Assembly: GCF_000177635.2 (NCBI RefSeq)
Contig: NC_014836.1
Span: 2,836,001-2,900,000, forward strand
Reading direction: 5' to 3'
Origin: Desulfurispirillum indicum S5
Lineage (GTDB): Bacteria > Chrysiogenota > Chrysiogenetes > Chrysiogenales > Chrysiogenaceae
DNA: 64,000 bases
Part shown: piece by piece, positions 37,305 to 41,045 of the stretch
Position numbering within the stretch: the stretch's first letter is position 1
Layout: each line of letters opens with the position of its first letter
The notes under the pieces: generated by a model
Seen by the model: only the letters and a program-made list of their open reading frames with translations
Database searches by the model: none
What the model was told of the DNA's origin: nothing
Translations under genes and position numbers: made by a program

Positions 37305-37805
37305 ATGCTGTCCATCGCCCGCATCACCAAAACCCGTGGCCTGCGGGGCGAGCTGCAACTGTTCAGCCTTTTCAATGAGCCTGGGCGCTTTGAAGGCCTG
37401 AAGCATCTCCATATCGGAGGGGTCAGGTTTGCCGTAAGCCGTCTGCGTATTGCGGACAGCCAGCGGCTGGTGGTCAGCCTGAAGGGTGTGGACACCATCG
37501 AACAGGCGGAAGAGCTGGTGGGGCAGGATGCCTGCCTGCCGGTCGATGAGATACCCCGTTACGAAGACGAATACTTCGATTTTGAACTGCAGAAGCTTCG
37601 CGTCATCAATGATGACGGCGAAGAACTTGGATCCTTAACACAGATTATTCACACGGGCGCCAAAGACGTGTACGAAATCCTCTCTCCCGGGGGCAAGCGG
37701 TGGATGATTCCGGCCAACCATGAATTCATCCCCGAAATCAACCTGGAGGAGGGCTACATGCTGGTGCGACCCATACCCGGAATGATGGACGAAGATGCGC
37801 TTTGA
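37305..37805 (+). CDS. rimM: ribosome maturation factor RimM
   Basis: 166 residues, normal length. N-terminal RimM beta-barrel (IARITKTRGLRGELQLF) and PRC-barrel C-terminus (YFDFELQKLRVINDDGEELG). Helps assemble the 30S head and binds S19. The frame is open six codons upstream (TTG), but the ATG at 37305 gives the canonical MLSIARI start. Its end overlaps trmD by 11 bp. Confidence 0.94.
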   Translation: MLSIARITKTRGLRGELQLFSLFNEPGRFEGLKHLHIGGVRFAVSRLRIADSQRLVVSLKGVDTIEQAEELVGQDACLPVDEIPRYEDEYFDFELQKLRVINDDGEELGSLTQIIHTGAKDVYEILSPGGKRWMIPANHEFIPEINLEEGYMLVRPIPGMMDEDAL

Positions 37806-39105
37806 TATCATAACCCTCTTTCCCGAAATGGTTCAGAGCTGTTTTGCCGAAGGTGTTGTGGGTCGGGCGCTGCAGCGGGGTGATATCGCCCTGAAGTGCG
37901 TGAACCCGCGCGATTTCACCAGCGATGTGCACCGTACCGTTGACGACACCCTCTACGGTGGCGGCAGCGGCATGCTGATGAAGGCCGAACCCTTGGCCAG
38001 CGCTGTTTCAGCAGTGGAGCGCGCCAGTCGCAGCCGGGTCATCTACCTTTCGCCCCAGGGCCAGCCCCTGAATCAGGCCAAGGTACGTGAACTGGCAGAG
38101 CTGGAGCAGCTCATCCTGGTGTGCGGACGCTACGAAGGCGTTGATCAGCGTTTTATCGACCACTATGTGGACGAGGAAATCTCCATCGGTGACTATGTCA
38201 TCAGTGGGGGCGAGCTGGCCGCCAGCGTAGTGATCGACAGCGTGGCCCGCTGCATTCCCGGTGTTATCGGCCAGGTGCAGAGCGTTACAGAAGACTCCTT
38301 CTTTGAAGGTCTGCTGGACGCGCCCCACTACACCCGGCCCGCCGAATTTGAGGCTGAGGCTGTTCCCGCTGTCCTCAGCGGCGGACACCATGAGCACATC
38401 GAGCAGTGGCGCGAGGAGCAATCCCTGCGCCGCACCTGGCACAAACGCCCCGATCTGCTGGAAAAAACCGTACTTTCCACCCGCCAGCGCACCATGCTGC
38501 GGAAGATCATGCGGGAGGACTGGCAGCAGCGCGGCATGCCCGGCGCCAATGTGAGCATCGCCCTGATTCACTATCCGGTGTACAACAAGCGCCATGAAGT
38601 CATCACCACTTCGGTGACCAACATGGACCTGCACGATATCTCCCGCACCGTGCGCACCTTTGAACTGACCAACTACTTTGTGGTGACGCCAGTCAAAAGC
38701 CAGCACGAACTGATGGGACGTATCACGCGCCACTGGACCGAGGGCTACGGCTCCACCTACAACCCCGATCGCAAGGAAGCTTTCGATCGTATGCAGTTTG
38801 TCCACAGCCTGGAGGATGTGCGCGAGCACTTCCGCAAGCGCGGGCAGCGGCTGGTGATTACCGCCACCAGCGCCAACCCCAAGTGGACCAACACCACCTA
38901 CCCCCATCTGTCACGCATGATGGATCAGGATCGCGAAACCCAGCACCTGATCCTCTTCGGCACCGGCTGGGGACTGACAGACGAAATCATGGAAGCAGCC
39001 GACTACGTGCTGCCCCCCATAGATGGCAATGGTGAATACAATCACCTTTCCGTAAGAAGTGCCGCCGCCATCACCCTTGACCGGGTGTTCCGGCGCTACC
39101 CGTAA
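37795..39105 (+). CDS. trmD: TrmD tRNA (guanine37-N1)-methyltransferase fused to a second SPOUT-type RNA methyltransferase
   Basis: 436 residues, against about 240-250 for ordinary TrmD. Residues 1-245 are a full TrmD: FDIITLFPEM, LVCGRYEGVDQR, GDYVISGGELA (trefoil knot) and the C-terminal helical tRNA-binding part. From about 250 (NVSIALIHYPVYNKRHEVIT) to the end runs a second SAM-binding domain like PF09936 (uncharacterised SPOUT RNA methyltransferases), with LILFGTGWGLTDE and HLSVRSAAAITLDR as knot motifs. In other anaerobes the second part is a separate gene next to trmD (from memory), so this is a fusion. ATG overlaps the rimM stop. Confidence 0.93.
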   Translation: MRFDIITLFPEMVQSCFAEGVVGRALQRGDIALKCVNPRDFTSDVHRTVDDTLYGGGSGMLMKAEPLASAVSAVERASRSRVIYLSPQGQPLNQAKVRELAELEQLILVCGRYEGVDQRFIDHYVDEEISIGDYVISGGELAASVVIDSVARCIPGVIGQVQSVTEDSFFEGLLDAPHYTRPAEFEAEAVPAVLSGGHHEHIEQWREEQSLRRTWHKRPDLLEKTVLSTRQRTMLRKIMREDWQQRGMPGANVSIALIHYPVYNKRHEVITTSVTNMDLHDISRTVRTFELTNYFVVTPVKSQHELMGRITRHWTEGYGSTYNPDRKEAFDRMQFVHSLEDVREHFRKRGQRLVITATSANPKWTNTTYPHLSRMMDQDRETQHLILFGTGWGLTDEIMEAADYVLPPIDGNGEYNHLSVRSAAAITLDRVFRRYP

Positions 39106-39503: not shown

Positions 39504-39537
39504 AAAAAAGGGAGGCAAATTGCCTCCCTTTTTTTAT
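39504..39537. terminator. bidirectional terminator of rplS and the UPF0251 gene
   Basis: AAAAAAGGGAGGCAA / TTGCCTCCCTTTTTTT is a 15-bp perfect stem with U tracts in both directions, between convergent genes. Confidence 0.92.
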
Positions 39538-39855
39538 TTACAATTCCGTTTGTGCATCCGGCGAAGGCGCAGTACCTTCCACACAGAGGGCCACGCCTTC
39601 CACCAGTCCCAGGGCTACTTTTCGCCGAGCCGAAACCAGCAGGCGCTGCACGGTTCCACGGGATACGCCCATACGCTCACCCGCCTCCTCCTGGGTCAGG
39701 CCCAGACCATCACACAGATAGAGTGACTCCAGTTCATCGTGGGCAATGCGCTCGTGACGCAGCTGCCTGCCGGGAATACCCGCAGGCTTAAAAACCCGCT
39801 CCACCGTATCGGGGAATGGGCAACTGCAGTGGCGCGGCTTACGTGAACGCGGCAC
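39538..39855 (-). CDS. UPF0251/DUF134 helix-turn-helix protein
   Basis: 105 residues; GTG start in TGAGTG right after the NifX-like gene. MPRSRKPR at the N-terminus and a sigma70-region-4-like HTH (GLTQEEAGERMGVSRGTVQRLLVSARRK) define the family, whose members are small DNA-binding regulators often paired with Fe-Mo-cofactor-like proteins in anaerobes. It probably binds the 41-bp palindrome upstream of its own operon (inference). Confidence 0.9.
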   Translation of the reverse strand: MPRSRKPRHCSCPFPDTVERVFKPAGIPGRQLRHERIAHDELESLYLCDGLGLTQEEAGERMGVSRGTVQRLLVSARRKVALGLVEGVALCVEGTAPSPDAQTEL

Positions 39856-40257
39856 TCAGTGGTTCCCACAGCAGGAGTGTCCCCCCGATCCGTGGCCGTG
39901 ACCATGGGAAGAGCAGGAGCCCTCCAGCTTCATTTCAGGCAGGGCGTTCTCCCGCAGCATCTGCATGTTTTCCGCCACGGTTTTCCCCAGCGCCTGATAG
40001 ACCCGGATGCCTGCGCGACGCAGCTGATTCAGCGCTCCTGCACCTATACCTCCAGCCACCACCGCCTCAGGGCGCATTTCACCAAGGGCTTTCAGGGGTT
40101 GACACTGACTGGCCTGATGGTTCAGGTCTCCGTTGCTGAGCTCCCGCACAGCACCCGTATCCATGTCCGCCAGGACAAACAGTGGTGCAGAGCCAAAGTG
40201 GTCAAAGACAATACTCTCCAGGCCAAGATTCTGAACAATGGGAAAACAGACATTCAT
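39856..40257 (-). CDS. NifX/NifB-C-like dinitrogenase iron-molybdenum cofactor family protein
   Basis: 133 residues. The small RNase-H-like domain (FDHFGSAPLFVLAD, VVAGGIGAGALNQLRRAGIRVY) of the NifX/NafY/MTH1175 family, which bind Fe-S or Fe-Mo clusters. The C-terminal tail is His/Cys/Gly rich (SSHGHGHGSGG and HSCCGNH), a probable extra metal site. No nif genes are nearby, so a general metal-cluster carrier is more likely than nitrogenase assembly. GGAGG lies 7 bp before the ATG; first gene of a pair with UPF0251. Confidence 0.9.
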   Translation of the reverse strand: MNVCFPIVQNLGLESIVFDHFGSAPLFVLADMDTGAVRELSNGDLNHQASQCQPLKALGEMRPEAVVAGGIGAGALNQLRRAGIRVYQALGKTVAENMQMLRENALPEMKLEGSCSSHGHGHGSGGHSCCGNH

Positions 40258-40267
40258 AGGTCACCCT

Positions 40268-40308
40268 CCGGGAGATATTTTGTGCATATGCACAGAATAT
40301 CTCCCCGG
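40268..40308. promoter_or_regulatory. 41-bp near-perfect palindrome upstream of the NifX-like/UPF0251 operon
   Basis: Left half CCGGGAGATATTTTGTGCAT and the reverse complement of the right half CCGGGGAGATATTCTGTGCA(T) agree except for one mismatch and one extra base; the centre is GTGCATATGCAC. It begins 11 bp before the NifX-like start and touches its RBS. A dyad this long near a start is likely an operator, with the UPF0251 protein as candidate binder. A terminator is unlikely as no U tract follows. Confidence 0.75.
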
Positions 40309-40439
40309 AAGACGTTGCTGTCAAGAAGAAAATCCGACGCCTGCCACAAAGAAAAAGAGGCATGTGCCGCTTTTTTTTTGTATTCTGTTGCCACGCCTGT
40401 CATGAAACAGTGCGCTGAACTGCTTTTCGGGAGTAATCC

Positions 40440-41045
40440 ATGGGAATTCTCTTCTACCTTGCGCTGGCCTATATCCTCTGTTCTATTCCCTTTGGCCTTG
40501 TCTTTGTCTACCTGGTCAAAGGCGAAGATATCCGAAAGTTCGGCAGCGGCAATATCGGCGCCACCAATGTCTTCCGCTTCGGCGGGGCACCGGTGGGCAT
40601 CCTGACCCTCTTTTTCGATGCCCTTAAGGGCTACCTCCCCGTGGTCCTCGTCATGAAGGCCTACCCCGAGCAGCCGCTGTACCATGTAATGGTTGCCATT
40701 GTCGGCATTCTCGGCCACTCCTACAGCATATTCCTCAAATTTCGCGGTGGCAAAGGGGTTGCCACCGGCCTTGGCGTCTGCCTGGCCCTGCTGCCCCTGC
40801 AGGTGGCTCTGGCGGCCGTGGTGTTTGCCGCCCTCTTCCTCACCAGTGGTTATGTCAGCCTGGGTTCCGTGGGAGCGGCGCTGAGCCTGCCCCTCATCAG
40901 CCTGCTGACGGGAGTGCCCGGCCTGTACCTGCTGTTTACCATAGCAGCGGCCGCCCTGGTGATCATCCGCCACCAGGAAAATATCCGCCGCCTGCTGCTG
41001 GGAACGGAAACAAAGATTCTGTGGAACAAAGACAGGGAAAAGTAA
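40440..41045 (+). CDS. plsY: glycerol-3-phosphate acyltransferase PlsY
   Basis: 201 residues. Polytopic inner-membrane enzyme that transfers acyl from acyl-phosphate to glycerol-3-phosphate, starting phospholipid synthesis. Motifs: FGSGNIGATNVFRFGG, FLKFRGGKGVATGLG (glycine loops facing the cytoplasm) and IIRHQENIRRLLLGTE at the C-terminus. Five membrane segments are visible. GGGAG lies before the ATG. Alone on the plus strand, divergent from the NifX-like operon and convergent with the DUF3108 gene. Confidence 0.95.
   Translation: MGILFYLALAYILCSIPFGLVFVYLVKGEDIRKFGSGNIGATNVFRFGGAPVGILTLFFDALKGYLPVVLVMKAYPEQPLYHVMVAIVGILGHSYSIFLKFRGGKGVATGLGVCLALLPLQVALAAVVFAALFLTSGYVSLGSVGAALSLPLISLLTGVPGLYLLFTIAAAALVIIRHQENIRRLLLGTETKILWNKDREK

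Follow-up and report, generated by a model that had tools for sequence, protein, structure and literature searches.

Does the long palindrome in front of a NifX-like/DUF134 operon of Desulfurispirillum indicum S5 serve as the operator of the DUF134 (UPF0251) protein encoded by the second gene of that operon? The question is addressed here for a window of 64,000 nucleotides (contig NC_014836.1, positions 2,836,001 to 2,900,000), the first nucleotide of which is position 1. The comparisons reported below make it likely that the dyad is this operator, with no binding or expression data available.

Palindrome and predicted promoter of the NifX-like/DUF134 operon

The palindrome spans 36 bp and consists of two 18-nt arms, GGGAGATATTTTGTGCAT (40270-40287) and ATGCACAGAATATCTCCC (40288-40305), with no spacer and a single mismatched pair (94% complementary). 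Allowing one bulged C joins the outer CC/GG pairs by eye and extends the structure to 41 bp. The original prediction, made from sequence alone, described a 41-bp palindrome with 20-bp halves, one mismatch and one bulge that touches the ribosome-binding site of the first gene. Both claims held: the palindrome is 36 bp long without the bulge, this form abuts GGAGGG, and the 41-bp form overlaps it by two bases. The composition-based chance expectation for a 36-mer with at most one mismatched pair is 6.5e-5 per 64 kb and 0.003 per genome, and 40270-40305 is the sole 36-mer with two or fewer mismatched pairs in the whole window.

In the genome (one contig, 2,928,377 bases), the 26-bp core occurs once even when 3 mismatches are tolerated. 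A search for the 14-bp core with a tolerance of 1 mismatch gave one further match, with 1 mismatch, inside a long open reading frame (C1:1357993); by our estimate about one such match is expected by chance. The window operon thus carries the only exact site TGTGCATATGCACA in the genome. A dispersed repeat was rejected on the basis of the single-copy core, so that one result named in advance as refuting the original prediction, a common dispersed repeat in this genome, does not hold. More generally, the explanation that the dyad is palindromic by chance, or is a repeat of the mobile or dispersed kind, is all but excluded: no point supporting it was found, and it is opposed by the low expectation per window, the single copy, and the conservation elsewhere described below.

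Features of the NifX-like/DUF134 operon and of its upstream region
Feature	Position	Strand	Basis or remark
NifX-like gene, PF02579 (Nitro_FeMo-Co), 133 aa, His/Cys-rich C-terminal tail	39856..40257	-	Profile; candidate sensor or partner
DUF134/UPF0251 gene, PF02001, 105 aa, GTG start, sigma region 4-like helix-turn-helix	39538..39855	-	Candidate autorepressor
DUF134 recognition helix VSRGTVQRLLVSARRKV, residues 64-80	39616..39666	-
Ribosome-binding site GGAGGG of the first gene	40264..40269	-	By eye
-35 TTGACA of the predicted operon promoter	40319..40324	-
-10 GATATT, 17 nt after the -35, within the 36-bp palindrome	40296..40301	-
Predicted transcription start, ~7 nt past the -10, beside the dyad centre	40289	-	Inference from the predicted promoter
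Conserved core operator TGTGCATATGCACA, perfect 14-bp palindrome	40281..40294	.	Conservation and helix-type comparison
Full palindrome	40270..40305 (41 bp: 40268-40308)	.	Arm pairing

Profile searches identified the first gene product as NifX-like (PF02579, 58.2 bits; cut-off, 26.3) and the second, encoded with zero gap after it on the minus strand, as a clear member of the DUF134 family (PF02001, 57.3 bits; cut-off, 27) that also matches Sigma70_r4 (35.5 bits; cut-off, 24.1). These scores bear out the prediction of a NifX-like gene followed by a UPF0251 gene with a sigma4-like helix-turn-helix. A single DUF134 match was found in the genome by profile search. The predicted structure of the DUF134 protein (mean pLDDT of 78, 94 to 96 over residues 41 to 80) is a helix-turn-helix, and its best Foldseek matches in the PDB were sigma region 4, including 1ku7 on -35 DNA, and the DNA-binding domain of DeoR. 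All E-values of this search were weak (best, 0.097; none below 0.001). The 105-residue protein had no profile match to sigma region 2; a sigma factor proper was rejected for DUF134 because this region is the one for -10 recognition and core binding. Likewise, the NifX-like gene was rejected as a true NifX of nitrogen-fixation clusters, since its neighbours are the DUF134 gene and a PF02660 gene, not nif cofactor genes.

Several observations were made around the operon. A second PF02579 gene of this genome (L325, C1:302147) follows a 468-residue open reading frame that is NifN/E-like by eye, and no exact dyad was found there. A second imperfect palindrome, with 3 mismatched pairs, occupies 40346-40381, in the interval that separates the NifX-like gene from the divergent PF02660 (plsY-type) gene. 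A single 436-residue open reading frame at 37795-39105 fuses a TrmD-type tRNA (guanine-1) methyltransferase to Methyltrn_RNA_4. Between the DUF134 gene and the preceding plus-strand gene (117 aa), which we take to be rplS-like by eye, GGGAGGCAAATTGCCTCCC is followed by a T run (~39510-39536); judged by eye, this is probably a terminator serving both strands.

The dyad overlaps the predicted promoter of the operon encoding DUF134, a promoter identified by consensus only. This promoter is of the sigma70 type and scores 10/12, and shuffles of the region yield 0.4 promoter-like sites. The same dyad, with 0 or 1 mismatch, was found at the same promoter position in seven NifX-like/DUF134 operons of the sampled deltaproteobacterial group (L200, L203, L210, L215, L216, L218, and L221), the NifX-like gene being recognized by profile in all seven. 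In each, the -35 is TTGACA or TTGACT and is separated by 17 nt from a -10 that starts 5 bp before the core. Absence of the dyad at orthologous operons, the other result that would have refuted the prediction, is therefore not observed. Among bacterial loci with the SRG type of recognition helix (see below) and a site, 13 of 14 have a -35/-10 pair scoring at least 9/12 with the -10 starting 3 to 7 bp before the site; the set includes the window and L323, and the miss is L033. Each of the 13 promoters has a -35 with 5 or 6 consensus matches. Random anchors in the same regions pass this test at 6.8%.

The inner 14 to 18 bp of the palindrome are kept in the orthologous operons, and the outer arms GGGAGATATT/AATATCTCCC are not. 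These outer arms (40270-40279 and 40296-40305) lengthen the palindrome well past the conserved core; the -10 falls within one of them, the other borders on the ribosome-binding site, and their role is unexplained.

In the phylum of the window, exact TGTGCATATGCACA sites occur in 3 of 50 genomes (G000, G007, and G037), each beside an SRG DUF134 gene and, for G007 and G037, directly before it. Neither DUF134 nor an exact site was found in the two sister genera; judged by eye, the PF02579 genes there are of the nif-cluster type and therefore cannot serve to test the orthologous operon. The T variant TGTGCTTATGCACA occurs four times in two genomes of the phylum (G011 and G021), away from DUF134 and NifX-like genes, and two of these occurrences lie at the start of duplicated lipoprotein-like open reading frames.

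The promoter geometry bears on two alternative explanations. First, the palindrome could act as RNA, by forming a hairpin that hides the ribosome-binding site or as a terminator-like or processing signal. In favour of this, the 36-bp palindrome lies right next to the ribosome-binding site, and a transcript of its full length would be able to fold into a long hairpin. Against it, the predicted start lies at the dyad centre, leaving only half of the palindrome transcribed; no terminator-like site was scored in 40100-40600; and what is conserved in the orthologues is the 14-bp core with its placement behind the -10, not the long stem (the RNA was not folded). We regard this possibility as very remote. 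Second, DUF134 bound to the dyad could activate transcription, or recruit RNA polymerase in the manner of a sigma factor, instead of repressing. The sigma region 4 fold favours this alternative, and sigma region 4 can contact RNA polymerase. However, in 13 of the 14 bacterial cases the operator begins at the -10 and extends over the predicted start, which is the geometry of a repressor; a -35 with 5 or 6 matches implies a promoter that should need little help; and DUF134 has no region 2 match. Activation is thus considered unlikely. Operator function for the dyad, with repression as the likely action because the dyad covers the -10 end and the predicted start, remains the preferred reading.

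The site covaries with the recognition helix of DUF134

Thirty-two loci were first gathered purely by protein similarity to the DUF134 protein of the window. Many have a match to TTGTGCATATGCACAA just upstream of the DUF134 gene or operon, the matches coming from deltaproteobacterial, Archaeoglobi, Bathyarchaeota, and Asgard-type records. The comparison was extended to 233 DUF134 loci (own phylum, 32-locus set, and three further phyla), each typed by its recognition helix. When each of the 64 palindromic hexamers was tried as the core, CATATG flanked by arms with 5 or more of the 6 positions paired was found in 27/233 loci, compared to a Markov expectation of 0.2 (60 runs; maximum, 1) and 3 in the downstream control. 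The next best core, TATATA, reached 12/233.

Overall, the family matches typed were 32/54 for the own phylum, 85/98 for the Desulfobacterota-type sample, 55/121 for the Halobacteriota-type sample, 70/139 for the Bacillota-type sample, and 68/80, plus one duplicate, for the Thermoproteota-type sample. One DUF134 protein, the best scoring, was counted per locus. The counts leave out L032 and L270 (duplicates of L001 and L049) and the loci fetched as pattern or PF02579 matches (L065-L076, L247-L253, and L324-L331). L323, which was chosen for its site, enters the counts based on 80 SRG loci and on 14 promoters and is excluded from the 39/79, fresh-set, and cluster counts below; the window itself (L001) is included in the 39/79.

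The TGTG-arm site TGTGCWTAWGCACA was searched with up to 2 mismatches from -600 to +20 of each of 341 loci, the downstream region serving as a control. It was present upstream in 39/79 loci with SRG helices and downstream in 3/79. In a separate count, its frequencies with other helices were 0/26 for SRN, 0/3 for SRS/SRT, and 5/193 for the remainder (downstream, 4/193). For TGTG arms with a CAW core, the summed rows for non-SRG loci of the 341-locus set gave 6/262 upstream and 4/262 downstream. With at most 1 mismatch and the site allowed anywhere in the locus, the counts were 34/80 upstream and 0/80 downstream for SRG loci and 0/262 upstream and 1/262 downstream for non-SRG loci. With motif and thresholds fixed beforehand, a fresh set of 68 archaeal loci from the phylum of genome G066 had the site in 15/34 SRG versus 0/34 non-SRG loci (Fisher P = 8e-6; downstream, 2 and 0).

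A different site accompanies the 26 SRN helices, which came from the fresh archaeal loci and depart from the SRG..W type in the third residue of the motif. The motif TGTGATATATCACA lies upstream in 24/26 SRN loci and downstream in 0/26; elsewhere it was found in 1/80 SRG, 1/3 SRS/SRT, and 0/193 other loci. Comparison of SRN loci to the rest, the lone SRS/SRT match being left out, gave 24/26 versus 1/276 (P = 4e-32). This motif was noticed in the same loci as those counted, so the test is not independent.

Relatedness was considered at three levels. Clustering at 70% identity left the TGTG site in 22/47 SRG clusters versus 6/126 for the rest, and the SRN site TGTGATATATCACA in 8/9 SRN clusters. 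The 13 bacterial and 26 archaeal SRG proteins with a site share a mean of 45% (34 to 59%) of the domain. In a quick tree, the SRN group and two SRS/SRT members form a clade (support, 0.94), and the SRG types are split over several clades, some of them weakly supported. The loci that show the covariation are kin by descent, and the fresh archaeal set shares its phylum with several archaea of the 32-locus set. Together, these comparisons show that the site covaries with the DUF134 recognition helix and that the same site is found in bacteria and archaea.

A further observation concerns SRN-type archaeal loci, several of which (L267, L281, L285, L289, L297, L298, L304, L306, L313, and L314) have two dyads 40 to 45 or 28 to 29 bp apart, as if two dimers adjoined.

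The covariation bears on a third alternative, namely, that the dyad serves as operator for a different regulator, under whose control DUF134 operons happen to be. No binding data contradict this view, palindromic operators adjacent to a gene can serve distant regulators, and sites are also found before other cluster-carrier genes (see below), as those of a third regulator would be. Against it, the site changes with the type of DUF134 helix, including the G/N switch, and the same site accompanies SRG DUF134 in both bacteria and archaea. A third protein would need to track DUF134 through both domains and to change in step with it, which we consider highly improbable. We therefore retain DUF134 itself as the probable ligand of the dyad.

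Other helix classes and genes behind exact sites

With the same thresholds (up to 2 mismatches, -600 to +20, 341 loci), motifs were counted for the other helix classes. SRxTFGR helices had TATRAG arms in 23/42 loci (downstream, 0) and the overlapping patterns TATGAA and TATTRG in 11/42 (0) and 14/42 (0). SRQTFGN helices had TATTRG arms in 5/7 (0) and TATRAG arms in 4/7 (0). TTTTGT arms were found in 9/24 ARTT loci (0), and TATGAA arms were found in 8/20 SQxT (0) and 8/40 SRPTF[QFHY]R (0) loci. Weak signals were TATGAA in 6/26 SRPTF[STV]R loci (downstream, 2) and TTTACA in 4/38 SR[KR]xxW loci (downstream, 2). None of the three TAT-type arms was found in SRG loci, and no own motif was found for the 8 SRPTVTR loci. 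Among 40 fresh Bacillota loci, the preassigned motif was present in just 2/11 ARTT and 2/18 SRPTF[QFHY]R loci. A one-pass palindrome search over all helix classes gave noisy output. Helix-to-site assignments outside SRG and SRN are thus weaker, because the class motifs overlap and the Bacillota set gave little support. Separately, TTGACATATG was observed in some Bacillota DUF134 loci (L340, L351, and L370, with an ARTT helix, and L367, with SRTT), and two of these four have TTGACATATGTCAA, in which two inverted -35 hexamers have a CATATG core in common.

No site was found within 600 bp in 40 of the 79 SRG loci, and most Bacillota loci likewise lack a nearby site. In the archaeal SRGTLWR subclass, just 1/14 has a site. 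Part of the SRG loci without a near site is explained by cases such as L042, in which the site lies at -846, before the operon.

Other cases emerged from the genes that follow exact sites. In the whole genomes of the 32-locus set, TGTGCWTATGCACA occurs exactly at 12 sites in 11 genomes, and the pattern read backwards occurs at 1 site. Seven of the 12 precede a DUF134 domain by 3 to 138 bp, one of these (in G067) fronting a second DUF134 with an SRG helix (Pfam). Three lie before DUF5320/NifX-like genes, namely, operons in G060 and G070 (by profile; G070 also by Pfam) and a DUF5320-like open reading frame in G057 (by eye). The remaining two are both in G062, one before an Mrp-type iron-transfer ATPase (PF10609, 312.7 bits) and the other before a pair of MinD-type ATPases with Fer4 (ferredoxin) domains. 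No site lies within 600 bp of the SRG DUF134 genes of G057, G060, G062, and G070 (L040, L043, L045, and L053). Since in these genomes the exact sites are at carrier genes and none is at DUF134, some of the missing near sites are accounted for, and the regulator seems to act on carriers encoded elsewhere. As inferred from the genes behind the sites, the regulator probably has the wider role of governing the supply of metal-sulphur cluster carriers.

The site was also seen before short Trp/Gly-rich archaeal genes of the DUF5320 type (L067 by Pfam; L042, L066, and L071 by eye). DUF5320 is a family without known function that may belong to the same system.

Proposed mechanism and relation to known systems

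Computation showed the site and where it lies relative to the predicted promoter, that it is conserved in bacteria and archaea and covaries with the helix, and which genes follow it. Dimer binding and repression by DUF134 are inferred. In the proposed mechanism, each subunit of a DUF134 dimer would place its recognition helix (SRGTVQR) on one of the two TGTGCAT half-sites, which are separated by roughly one helical turn. The TGTGC and GCACA half-sites are ~10 bp apart, centre to centre, from which we infer that the dimer could reach both from one face. The operator begins at the -10 end and covers the predicted start point, and a bound dimer would thereby block RNA polymerase. The NifX-like/DUF134 operon would then be repressed by its own DUF134 protein, i.e., negatively autoregulated. 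The original prediction that the dyad is a natural candidate for a UPF0251 operator is thus supported by comparison only; binding, the direction of regulation, and a response to Fe-S or Mo are at most inferred.

The nature of the signal is speculative. A NifX-like domain is encoded within the locus in 93/233 DUF134 loci and in the same open reading frame in 15, three of these fusions being confirmed by Pfam. The NifX-like protein, which is fused to DUF134 in other species, may report the state of a metal-sulphur cofactor, although its sensing role and the ligand are no more than possibilities. At least two cysteines are present near the N terminus in 22 of 27 bacterial SRG DUF134 proteins (by eye). 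A metal-sulphur signal for DUF134 is plausible because of the MrpORP-type domain, the His/Cys tail of the NifX-like protein, the N-terminal cysteines of DUF134, and the carrier genes, but this remains a guess.

MrpORP belongs to the orange-protein (ORP) system of Desulfovibrio, and its Di-Nase domain is reported to bind a [3Fe-4S] cluster (PMC6345978, the main text of which contains no word beginning with DUF). The NifX-like protein of the window matches positions 275 to 351 of the MrpORP model, and an Mrp-type ATPase is found behind the operator in one archaeon. The window protein is not MrpORP, since it lacks the P-loop domain and scores 23.9 bits for NF041136 against a cut-off of 450. Unlike the sigma70-type promoter predicted in the window, orp operons are described in the literature as sigma54 controlled.

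Profile and fold indicate that DUF134 has the same helix-turn-helix as sigma-70 region 4 (e.g., 1ku7), and the SR of SRGTVQR would correspond in position to the TR of the sigma motif TRERIRQ. In contrast to sigma-70 region 4, DUF134 is a stand-alone protein of 105 residues without a region 2 match, and it is proposed to bind a palindrome as a dimer, not a single -35. The DNA-binding domain of DeoR, known in complex with operator DNA (7bhy and 8r7y), is also among the best fold and profile matches. DeoR is a repressor with a separate effector domain. It is much longer than DUF134 (the 8r7y chain has 318 residues), and the match is confined to the helix-turn-helix.

In the open-access literature searched, we found no functional paper on DUF134/UPF0251 and no described function or target, in agreement with the claim that UPF0251 has no known target. 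DUF134 is mentioned in PMC7565180 without a function, the word also occurs in PMC8347963, UPF0251 appears in a mutation table of PMC5886521, and COG1342, which we take to be the same family, is named in a halovirus paper. The window protein being a clear member of this family, what is new here is the proposed target site and the relation of helix to site.

The family is widespread. At an E-value of at most 0.001, DUF134 was found in 75/197, 97/148, 107/149, and 77/200 genomes of the four sampled phyla, which we take to be Desulfobacterota, Halobacteriota, Bacillota, and Thermoproteota, respectively. A concrete operator makes this widespread family, for which no published function was found, a testable regulator, and the natural G/N switch in helix and site lends itself to swapping specificities by experiment. 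Judging from the genes behind the site, what is controlled are the equally obscure NifX-like proteins and related cluster carriers. Archaea are not known to have sigma factors, and the proposed operator would be a case of the sigma-region-4 fold reading palindromes in them.

A bolder reading can be formulated, which as a whole we lean slightly against. DUF134 would be a stand-alone sigma-region-4 repressor family common to Bacteria and Archaea, reading palindromes of the form arm-CATATG-arm through a compact helix code. The third residue of SRxT, G or N, would decide between a CAT/ATG and an ATA/TAT core, respectively, with the TGTG arms unchanged, and other helix types would read TATGAA, TATRAG, TATTRG, or TTTTGT arms. 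The regulon would consist of metal-sulphur cluster carriers (NifX-like, DUF5320, Mrp-type, and ferredoxin-MinD ATPases), with NifX-like domains, separate or fused, acting as the cofactor sensor. If this reading were true, DUF134 would be a regulator of cofactor status working with two quite different transcription machineries.
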